Source: Candidatus Zixiibacteriota bacterium
GTDB taxonomy: Bacteria; Zixibacteria; MSB-5A5; GN15; FEB-12
Assembly (NCBI GenBank): GCA_034003725.1
Contig: JAVEYB010000010.1
Span: forward strand, 1-44,653
Reading direction: 5' to 3'
Length of the DNA: 44,653 bases
The notes below the pieces were generated by a model. It had not been told where the DNA came from. It saw only the letters and a list, made by a program, of their open reading frames with translations, and did not search any database. The position numbers and the translations under genes were made by a program. Of the stretch, positions 1-34,162 are shown one piece after another; position 1 is the stretch's first letter, and each line of letters starts with the position of its first letter.

Positions 1-1
1 G

Positions 2-64
2 TTTCTCGACGGTCTGCCGCAGGGTGGAGTCCGCCACTGGCGGAGTAGCTCGTCGGGCTCATAA
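2..64 (+). pseudogene. C-terminal tail of an upstream GIY-YIG nuclease copy (cut by window edge)
   Basis: The first bases read in frame as FLDGLPQGG and run to a TAA at 62-64. This is the same tail, base for base, as that of the complete nuclease ending at 418. The array of tRNA-like gene plus nuclease therefore begins upstream of the window with at least one more nuclease copy. Whether that upstream copy is intact cannot be seen. Confidence 0.7.
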
Positions 65-109
65 CTCCGCCGCGGCGGATCGCAGGTTCAAATCCTGCCC
101 CCGCCACCA
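18..109 (+). tRNA. Initiator tRNA-Met(CAU)-like gene, copy A, with palindromic replacements
   Basis: The core resembles bacterial initiator tRNA: TGGAG (25-29), TAGCTCGTCGGG, a CTCATAA anticodon loop, then a perfect T arm (stem 82-86/94-98 with loop TTCAAAT), the acceptor 3' strand CCCCGCC and an encoded CCA (107-109). The 5' acceptor CGCAGGG leaves C1 unpaired, as in initiators, but also has an A-C mismatch. The D-loop is replaced by TCCGCC-ACT-GGCGGA (30-44). The 3' anticodon strand and variable region are replaced by TCCGCC-GC-GGCGGA (66-79), so the normal CCCGA partner of the TCGGG stem is absent. It is either a degenerate tRNA or a tRNA-derived element. Function as a tRNA is doubtful. 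Confidence 0.65.
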
Positions 110-142
110 AATAGCAGTCCATTCCTCTGGGGAGAGGGAATT

Positions 143-418
143 CTGTTTACCGTCTATGTCATTTTGTCTGAGTCGGGGCGACGGTACACCGGCTACAGCG
201 AAGATCTCGACAAGCGTGTTGGCCAACACAACTCCGGGCTCTGCAAAACCACCAAAGTCGATACTGGCTGGCGGGTCGTTTACACAGAGGTGTATGCAAC
301 TCGGTCCGCGGCGATGAAACGCGAGCGCTGGCTCAAAAGCGGTGTTGGACGAGAGTTTCTCGACGGTCTGCCGCAGGGTGGAGTCCGCCACTGGCGGAGT
401 AGCTCGTCGGGCTCATAA
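143..418 (+). CDS. GIY-YIG endonuclease (URI/COG2827-type), overlapping the next tRNA-like gene
   Basis: This is a compact GIY-YIG nuclease of about 91 residues. Visible motifs are TVYVILS (GIY strand), RYTGY (YIG strand), DKRVGQHNSG (the helix with the conserved Arg) and AMKRERW (the metal-binding Glu), so the known catalytic set looks complete. No ATG or GTG lies upstream of the domain. A GGGGAGAGGG Shine-Dalgarno-like run at 129-138 precedes ATT/CTG codons at 140/143; the first TTG is at 164, inside the GIY motif. I therefore place the start near 143. The frame is open from the TAA in tRNA-A's anticodon loop (62-64) to the TAA in tRNA-B's anticodon loop (416-418). Such small nucleases are often found just 3' of tRNA genes. 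A role in mobility of the unit is inference. Confidence 0.8.
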   Translation: MFTVYVILSESGRRYTGYSEDLDKRVGQHNSGLCKTTKVDTGWRVVYTEVYATRSAAMKRERWLKSGVGREFLDGLPQGGVRHWRSSSSGS

Positions 419-463
419 CTCCGCCGCGGCGGATCGCAGGTTCAAATCCTGCCCCCGCCACCA
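372..463 (+). tRNA. Initiator tRNA-Met(CAU)-like gene, copy B
   Basis: Identical over all 92 bases to the copy at 18-109, with the same two palindromes (384-398 and 420-433), the CTCATAA loop, T arm and encoded CCA (461-463). Its 5' half overlaps the end of the upstream nuclease ORF, and the TAA of its anticodon loop is that ORF's stop codon. The same doubts about folding apply: the 3' strand of the anticodon stem is missing. Confidence 0.65.
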
Positions 464-496
464 AATAGCAGTCCATTCCTCCGGGGAGAGGGAATT

Positions 497-658
497 CTGT
501 TTACCGTCTATGTCATTTTGTCTGAGTCGGGGCGACGGTATACCGGCTACAGCGAAGATCTCGACAAGCGTGTTGGCGACTCCGGCGAGACGGGGCGAGC
601 TTTGGCAGTCATGAGCGCCGCGGACTATGGGATCTGTCGGGCGAAAGTTTGTGATTGA
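497..658 (+). pseudogene. Truncated GIY-YIG nuclease, second copy
   Basis: The frame matches the intact copy through the GIY and YIG strands and the first helix (LDKRVG). It then enters unrelated sequence (GDSGETGRAL...) and stops at TGA 656-658. The HNSG motif and the helix with the metal-binding Glu are missing, so the product should be inactive. The break at 577 marks the right end of the array. The retained part is nearly identical to copy A, so the truncation is probably recent. Confidence 0.8.
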
Positions 659-32818: not shown

Positions 32819-34162
32819 ATGGACTACGAGCTGCTGTCTCGAATTCAATTTGGCTTTACGATTGGATTCCATTACCTCTTCCCTCCCCTCAGCATAGGCC
32901 TCGGTCTGTTCCTGGTCATATCGGAAGGGTTGTACCTGAAGACCAAGGACCAGTTGTACCATCGCATGACCCGATTCTGGGTTAGGGTATTCGGGCTCAT
33001 TTTCGCGCTGGGTGTCGCTACCGGGATCGTCATGGAGTTTCAGTTTGGTACGAACTGGGCCACGTATTCGCGGTATGTCGGCGACGTGTTCGGCAGCGCG
33101 CTGGCTGCCGAAGGCGTATTTGCCTTTTTCCTCGAATCCGGGTTCCTGGCGATCCTGTTGTTTGGCTGGGACAAAGTCAAGCCGACCACGCATTTCATCT
33201 CGACCATCCTGGTCTGTTTTGGGGCGCATTTTTCGGCCATATGGATTGTCGTCGCCAACTCCTGGCAGCAGACACCGACCGGACATCATATTGTCGGAGT
33301 GGGGGCCGACGCGCGTGCGGAAATCGTGGATTTCTGGCAGGTCGTATTCAATCCCTCGTTTCTCGACCGGATCAGTCACACCTATATGGGCTGCTGGCAG
33401 GCCGCCGCATTTTTCATCCTGAGCGTCAGCGCTTTCTATCTGCTTCGTCGCAAACATCGCGCATTCGCCGTCGGCTCGATGAAAATCGCGATCGTAATTG
33501 CCGTGGTTGCCTCAATCCTCCAATTGGTCACCGGGCATTCGAGCGCCGCGACCGTTGCCGAAACGCAGCCCGCAAAGCTTGCGGCATTCGAAGGTCACTT
33601 CCCGGCCGAGGCTCCCGCGGGCCTGTATTTGTTCGGCTGGGTAGATGAAGAGGCGGAACGCACATACGGTTTCCAGATACCCGGTATGCTCAGCTACCTC
33701 GTCCATGGCGACAGCGAGGCTCCGGTCACCGGACTGGGCGCATTCGACAAAGAAGACCGGCCACCGGTGAATCCGGTCTTTCAAAGCTATCACGCTATGG
33801 TGGCCATCGGGATGCTGTTGATCGCGTTGTCGCTTGTGTCACTCTTTCTATGGGTGCGCAGGACGTTGCCGGACAAACGATGGTTTTTGTGGATCTTGGT
33901 CTTTTCCGTCATCCTTCCCCAGGCAGCCAACCAGTTGGGGTGGTTTTCGGCCGAGGTCGGACGGCAACCGTGGATCGTGTACGGGCTGCTCCGCACGGAA
34001 GATGCCTTGTCGCGGTCGGTCGATGCGGGCGACGTACTGATTTCACTGCTCCTTTTTGGTTTCATCTATCTGCTGCTCTTTCTGCTGTTCATTTACCTGC
34101 TCAACGAGAAGATTCAGCATGGACCCGATGAACCTCCCGTGGTGGAGGGTCACCGCGCATGA
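32819..34162 (+). CDS. cydA: Cytochrome bd ubiquinol oxidase subunit I
   Basis: 447 residues with nine predicted membrane segments, typical of the short-Q-loop CydA. His18 ([15 protein letters not shown]) is a haem b595 ligand. The acidic pair is in [16 protein letters not shown] second haem His lies in SHTYMGCWQ, and the [13 protein letters not shown] motif is near the C-terminus. The enzyme oxidises quinol and reduces O2 to water with high affinity and without proton pumping. It overlaps cydB by 4 bp (ATGA). The peroxiredoxin gene precedes it. bd oxidase supports growth at low O2 and resists NO, consistent with the nearby nitrogen-oxide cluster. Confidence 0.97.

Follow-up and report, generated by a model that had tools for sequence, protein, structure and literature searches.

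Mobile elements that exploit tRNA genes usually encode integrases. Integrative elements of the tyrosine-integrase type insert at a tRNA gene and duplicate part of it, with the result that one copy stays intact. Small proteins of the UPF0213 type contain the GIY-YIG nuclease fold, which is close to that of SLX1, a nuclease of branched DNA. We know of no linkage to tRNA genes in the description of the UPF0213 family.

A connection between a GIY-YIG nuclease and tRNA genes has been established in phages. SegB is a free-standing GIY-YIG homing endonuclease of phages T4 and T6 (PMC13096335; PMC2988022). The accessible parts of the first of these reports place it among phage tRNA genes, inside which it cuts, and describe how recombination amplifies tRNA-Tyr-segB segments in phage T6 by a process requiring the nuclease activity of SegB (PMC13096335). 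The amplified tRNA-Tyr copies are full-length genes that raise tRNA expression, and the amplified segments include C-terminally truncated copies of the nuclease (PMC13096335). In a different system, as outlined in the accessible parts of its account, the REP palindromes are short, tagged with GTAG or CGTC, and lie beside a Y1 transposase, RAYT (PMC3733652).

Among openly licensed papers on bacterial GIY-YIG/tRNA elements, pseudo-tRNA hairpins, YhbQ and tRNA-derived repeats, the SegB work alone is directly relevant. We found no description there of chromosomal tRNA-GIY-YIG arrays in bacteria or of pseudo-tRNAs with hairpin replacements, and earlier accounts elsewhere are possible. As far as the openly licensed literature goes, tRNA-associated free-standing nucleases are known, and chromosomal arrays with hairpin-replaced pseudo-tRNAs are new here.

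A tandem array with dead copies of tRNA-fMet

The window, by which we mean the whole stretch of DNA analysed, comprises 44,653 nucleotides from a Candidatus Zixiibacteriota bacterium (G000:C10:1-44653) and is the beginning of the 132,516-bp contig C10 in an assembly of 35 contigs. Its features are listed in Table 1. A tandem arrangement of 354-bp units had been proposed in a sequence-only reading, and is confirmed. The two copies differ at 128, at 187 and from about 224, and are therefore related but non-identical. The same reading saw at least three nuclease ends; two full or near-full 3' ends are indeed present, but the third copy is truncated. It also attached importance to a unit of exactly 118 codons. 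This modular length is a coincidence, for relatives have periods of 319, 322, 313, 430 and 387. The shared stop codon within an anticodon loop is real, and we find it again in five relatives (G079, G096, G098, G022 and G059), where the nuclease stop is the TAA or TAG (CATAA or CATAG) of the downstream pseudo-tRNA anticodon.

Table 1. Positions of the array features in the window (psi-tRNA, pseudo-tRNA).
Feature	Position	Strand	Remarks
Tandem array of 354-bp units, part	1..589	+	1-235 repeats at 355-589; contig begins within array
3' end of preceding nuclease copy	1..64	+	TAA 62-64 inside psi-tRNA anticodon loop
psi-tRNA-fMet copy 1 (CGCAGGGTGGAG...CCA)	18..109	+	45-65 and 80-109 identical to intact tRNA 20-40 and 48-77
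D-loop hairpin TCCGCCACTGGCGGA, psi-tRNA 1	30..44	+	in place of CAGTCTG; compared with intact tRNA
Hairpin TCCGCCGCGGCGGA, psi-tRNA 1	66..79	+	in place of CCGAAGG (anticodon-stem 3' strand and variable loop)
Shine-Dalgarno-like GGGGAGAGGG ahead of probable CTG start	129..138	+	sequence reading
Complete GIY-YIG nuclease, about 91 aa	143..418	+	probable near-cognate CTG start 143-145; TAA 416-418 in psi-tRNA 2
psi-tRNA-fMet copy 2	372..463	+	
D-loop hairpin, psi-tRNA 2	384..398	+	
Anticodon/variable-region hairpin, psi-tRNA 2	420..433	+	
Third nuclease copy, truncated	497..658	+	homologous to about 577; unrelated tail to TGA 656-658

Searched with the DNA of the array unit, the bacterium's own genome yields a further occurrence where contig C18 ends, at 49,076, inside the same GIY-YIG nuclease gene. 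Here there is an intact tRNA-fMet with the anticodon CAT (C18:48903-48979), scoring 66 bits against the Rfam tRNA model. Upstream of it lies a promoter-like TTGACA/TATTAT pair followed by three 58-bp tandem repeats (C18:48730-48902, L043). The repeats thus occupy the space between promoter and tRNA; they start like a tRNA 5' end, and resemble the 5' half of tRNA-fMet with a D-loop hairpin.

The two contigs have exactly 127 nt in common, ending at C10:206, and the bases before this differ. C18 runs on for 127 nt past the last base that sets it apart from C10, and in C10 there are 127 nt ahead of base 128, where its own two copies first diverge. Since both ends lie 127 nt from a distinguishing base, the assembly probably broke at a repeat longer than an assembler k-mer of 127. 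The simplest walk would join C18 to C10, and the order along the chromosome would then be promoter, three 58-bp tRNA-half repeats, intact tRNA-fMet, nuclease, pseudo-tRNA, nuclease, pseudo-tRNA and truncated nuclease.

The two tRNA-like stretches in the window had been read as tRNA genes, and this we reject. ARAGORN finds no tRNA in the window, the Rfam tRNA score of both stretches is a borderline 29.2 bits (gathering score 29), and each copy contains two hairpins. Judged by their sequence, they are hairpin-disrupted pseudo-copies of tRNA-fMet, dead as tRNAs. The replacements are the same in both, with TCCGCCACTGGCGGA in the D loop and TCCGCCGCGGCGGA after the anticodon loop, and elsewhere the intact tRNA is matched without a mismatch over its positions 20-40 and 48-77. 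In the whole genome there are 20 palindromes of the form TCCGCC-GGCGGA, with 7 in the fMet array and 3 in a tRNA-Asn array on contig C17.

The latter (C17:54259-54573, L162:1260-1574, minus strand) is a tandem array of four tRNA-Asn(GTT) 3' halves with a period of 82 bp and no nuclease; each half has a TCCGCC/TCCGTC...GGCGGA hairpin after the anticodon arm, and the contig ends within the array. Two further observations were made in the same genome. A tRNA-Met(CAT) at the start of contig C25 (48-123 onwards, L041) is followed by an ORF like the start of a phage-type integrase (MGTIYKRGRVYYINVVNEGKRVRKRVGTSRRV), and is probably an ordinary integrated element. The window itself contains a 27-bp tandem repeat of 2.1 copies at 34046-34101.

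The nuclease and its tRNA genes among relatives

The frame between the TAA codons at 62-64 and 416-418 is open, as the sequence-only reading had it, and comprises 117 codons; the GIY-YIG nuclease with a full motif set that it saw there is upheld. The Pfam GIY-YIG profile (PF01541) matches with E 4.6e-13 and 49.7 bits against a curated cut-off of 22.6, and the catalytic set Y6, Y16, G18, R26 and E62 is present. In an alignment of 15 homologues of the fMet group Y6, Y16, G18, R61 and E62 are invariant and R26 nearly so. The nuclease does not, however, start at the previous TAA, for the ATG of relatives aligns with the CTG at 143-145. At this position the window gene has no ATG, GTG or TTG, and the homologues in G059 and G001 likewise lack a standard start codon. 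A weak CTG start would fit low expression.

An AlphaFold model of the nuclease (pLDDT 87.7) is a single compact domain of about 80 amino acids, beyond which there is only a short, low-confidence floppy tail. The model contains no DNA-binding region besides the catalytic domain, such as a SegB-like homing endonuclease would have. The nearest solved structures are the UPF0213 proteins BH0048 and EF2693 (PDB 1zg2 and 1ywl), with E values for 1zg2 of 7e-11 in a profile search and 1.8e-5 in Foldseek, and SLX1 comes next. In the 354-bp unit the GIY-YIG gene is the sole ORF found with a domain. We find no integrase gene there and no Y1 transposase; no gene of the latter kind would fit.

A search with the nuclease matched 83 of 146 relatives in the Zixiibacteriota. 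For linkage we counted most listed nuclease loci with flanks, down to about E 1e-4. A tRNA gene or fragment lies within 400 bp of the nuclease in 72 of 103, or 68 of 99 after dropping two loci counted twice, and it is always on the strand of the nuclease; the chance expectation is about 1.4%. An association with tRNA genes beyond this one genome, which the sequence-only reading had raised, is therefore borne out. The closest relatives of the window nuclease are found at tRNA-fMet; those further removed lie at tRNA genes for Asp, Asn, Gly, Ala, Val and Ser.

In a tree of 95 nucleases the tRNA isotype requires 14 changes, compared with 40 for host family on identical rows. None of 200 shuffles matched the clustering of the isotype labels taken together. 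The Met rows fall in one supported branch (97; 15 Met in 18 rows) that spans families f1, f2, f4, f5, f7, f8, f17 and f18. The tree rests on few columns, many of its forks are weak, and a few isotype labels are uncertain owing to the resemblance between tRNA fragments of different isotypes. As read from these sequences, each nuclease clade appears largely to keep to one tRNA isotype across host families. Related clades without tRNA neighbours make up 31 of the 95 rows.

The dN/dS ratios with unsaturated dS are mostly 0.07-0.21, and one close pair (L116/L121) gives 0.71; by this measure the nucleases of the wider family are under purifying selection. Four homologues are broken by internal stop codons (L046, from the window's own genus, L056, L074 and L092), as is expected in a homing cycle.

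An origin from phages or plasmids was considered and rejected: all 18 phage matches are below 60% identity (best hit 43.8%), and there is a single plasmid match. A search of the window's own genus with the flanking cysM-like gene gave a best match (in G002) that is 49% identical with no tRNA nearby. For the Asn locus in genus g30, a search with the flanks matched a large repeated domain family and yielded no orthologous site.

Locus layouts and hairpin replacement

Two layouts recur. In the first the order is intact tRNA, nuclease, 3' tRNA fragment. In the second it is 5' tRNA fragment, nuclease, intact tRNA, with the promoter sometimes duplicated. Tandem arrays are present in relatives, and those of G107 (L082) and G096 (L057) close with a truncated nuclease like that of the window. 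The architecture also occurs in single-contig genomes (L093, L102, L071, L124 and L091).

In one congeneric pair the site is variable. G063 has a pseudo-tRNA 5' half, nuclease, duplicated promoter and tRNA-fMet, and at the orthologous locus G066 has a promoter, tRNA-fMet and a pseudo-tRNA with three hairpins, with no nuclease. Comparison of the two indicates that the nuclease differs in presence or absence at one tRNA-fMet locus, by gain or loss in this one pair, with the promoter and 5' tRNA half duplicated in the nuclease-bearing allele. Taken with the class-wide linkage and the fidelity of clades to isotypes, the variable site and the partial tRNA duplication support the idea of a distinct unit, sited at tRNA genes and containing a portion of one.

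The most unusual feature here, which the sequence-only reading had missed, is that hairpins stand in place of tRNA loops and arms. In partial copies it is the D loop, anticodon arm or T loop that is replaced, and in loci of the Asp, Asn, Gly, Ala and Val isotypes another perfect hairpin, often TCC...GGA, takes the place of all or part of the anticodon arm. A perfect stem of at least 5 bp abuts 102 of 151 internal boundaries of partial tRNAs, compared with 7% at random positions; boundaries within a locus are non-independent. Counted by locus, 46 of 62 have a hairpin at a partial-tRNA boundary against 15% expected. At Ser-linked loci a hairpin by the strict definition is found in 3 of 14, and several have longer or imperfect loop hairpins.

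A search of 84,980 species genomes with the D-loop hairpin motif returned 17 stretches, falling in Zixiibacteriota/GN15, Ignavibacteria/Melioribacter and other Bacteroidetes. There is a GIY-YIG gene within about 400 bp in 11 of these and an intact tRNA-fMet nearby in 16. Two Zixiibacteriota records recovered in this way have nucleases identical to those of G063 and G122, which would place the class of the window in Zixiibacteriota.

Hairpin-bearing tRNA-fMet 5' fragments are also seen just upstream of an intact tRNA-fMet in Flavobacteriales/Crocinitomicaceae (L171, L173, L177, L181, L185) and in Ignavibacteria (L175), and at these six loci we found no nuclease gene nearby. In G121 three TCCCGCC...GGCGGGA hairpins occur with a spacing of 77 bp (C1:1758110-1758280), probably another pseudo-tRNA array away from the nuclease locus. 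Dispersed REP sequences were examined as a full explanation and are ruled out for G042 and G050, both single-contig genomes, which have few copies of the hairpin beyond the nuclease locus (3 and 4 in total, with 2 at that locus in each); G121 has 23 copies.

Proposed selfish elements on tRNA genes

The array and its recurrence at several kinds of tRNA gene point to selfish elements with tRNA genes as their home, probably a family that has yet to be described. The array, the tRNA linkage, the tracking of isotype, the presence or absence at one locus with its duplicated tRNA 5' part, the purifying selection on nucleases of the wider family and the hairpin replacement are read directly from the DNA. 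Our preferred reading, to which we assign a probability of about 0.58, is a minimal SegB-like nuclease element that homes to and amplifies at tRNA genes, for which it is specific. The element would pair a GIY-YIG gene for roughly 80-95 amino acids with a copy, whole or in part, of a single kind of tRNA gene (initiator tRNA-fMet in this case), and the adjacent intact tRNA would keep the host cell alive. The nuclease would break DNA in or near the cognate tRNA gene, and repair from the element-bearing copy would insert the nuclease there together with its flanking tRNA sequence, a process of homing. Between sister copies, repair would lengthen the locus into a series of tRNA-nuclease repeats, in the manner of SegB in phage T6. 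Hairpins in the D loop, anticodon arm or T loop would keep surplus tRNA copies non-functional, and such copies would probably be poor nuclease substrates, with the target destroyed.

The intact neighbour retains its arms; this is the chief difficulty, and for this reason we hold the general reading at the stated level and the hairpin explanation lower. If the anticodon arm is the cut site, self-cleavage must be limited in some other way. A bare catalytic domain, with no DNA-binding domain to give isotype specificity, also counts against a homing element, as do the few strict hairpins at Ser-linked loci, the single genome pair with a variable site and the dN/dS of L116/L121. The nuclease-free arrays of hairpin pseudo-tRNAs on C17 and in Flavobacteriales indicate that hairpins do not depend strictly on a neighbouring nuclease. 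A fuller proposal is offered tentatively, and is doubtful as a whole: Zixiibacteriota, Ignavibacteria and Bacteroidetes would share a chromosomal mobile element of a previously undescribed class, in which a bare GIY-YIG nuclease of about 85 amino acids, each of its lineages dedicated to a single tRNA isotype, multiplies and moves among tRNA genes and labels the surplus copies by hairpin swaps, through an unknown DNA reaction that is possibly the nuclease's own.

An ordinary small GIY-YIG protein of UPF0213 type might instead sit beside tRNA genes for their strong promoter, with recombination between tRNA repeats building arrays and no homing. BH0048 and EF2693 as closest solved relatives, the reading of every tRNA-linked nuclease in the direction of its tRNA, and the related clades without tRNA neighbours are all in accord with this. 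From it one would not expect clades that stay with an isotype across host families, a locus at which the nuclease varies in presence, or tRNA arms replaced by hairpins, and we regard it as rather unlikely. The hairpins could themselves be the primary mobile entity, tiny TCC...GGA palindromes entering loops of single-stranded tRNA genes and placed or excised by the GIY-YIG enzyme. Several different hairpins at D, anticodon and T positions of one pseudo-tRNA (L212, L052, L073), the 10 of 20 palindromes within tRNA-derived arrays and the structural proximity of SLX1 would suit such a process. Yet in G042 and G050 the hairpin does not behave as a freely spreading repeat, and nuclease-free arrays occur; we consider the idea improbable. 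A role in RNA, with transcribed pseudo-tRNAs acting as processing signals or decoys whose swapped arms avoid folding or competing with the real tRNA, seems less probable still; a promoter-like pair lies ahead of the tRNA and its half-repeats, and pseudo-tRNA 1 retains the tRNA 3' part including the T arm, plus CCA, but many copies are only 5' or 3' fragments unable to fold as tRNA. That the repeat is a contig-edge error is very unlikely, for while the array is at a contig start in a draft assembly, its copies have distinguishing bases, the contigs end exactly at 127-nt breaks and single-contig genomes contain equivalents.

The sole enzyme of the element that we favor is a bare nuclease domain, yet its lineages largely hold to one tRNA isotype across bacterial families, and the precise hairpin replacements in surplus tRNA copies have no obvious known cause. 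If the homing reading is confirmed, tRNA amplification of the SegB type would be extended from phages to bacterial chromosomes, and a concrete question would be raised of how a single-domain nuclease recognizes a tRNA gene. It would also account for some annotation noise and assembly breaks at tRNA genes.

The unit resembles the integrase elements in its site at a tRNA gene, part of which is duplicated while one copy is intact; it differs in that its only gene is a GIY-YIG nuclease and the fragments are 5' as well as 3'. In size, single domain and best sequence and fold matches it is like the UPF0213 proteins, and departs from their description in its linkage to tRNA, though a related tRNA-free clade also occurs. 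With REP/RAYT, so far as the accessible parts of that account extend (PMC3733652), it shares short palindromes near a small nuclease gene, but here these are at set positions in tRNA-derived sequence and rare elsewhere in some genomes. GTAG, moreover, comes after and not before the hairpin of the D loop, and the anticodon hairpin lacks it. The closest tested analogue is in our judgement SegB. As there, to judge from the accessible parts of the SegB reports, a GIY-YIG gene lies by tRNA genes, with tandem arrays and a truncated nuclease copy. A place beside the presumed target gene (68 of 99 loci, with the cognate isotype by clade) and presence or absence at one site (the pair G063 and G066) also agree with a free-standing homing endonuclease. 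In contrast to the phage enzyme, the nuclease here is chromosomal and a bare catalytic domain of about 80-95 amino acids, and the pseudo-tRNAs have hairpin replacements, of which the accessible parts of the SegB reports describe none. By this analogy, the arrays look like the chromosomal product of SegB-type cutting and recombination.
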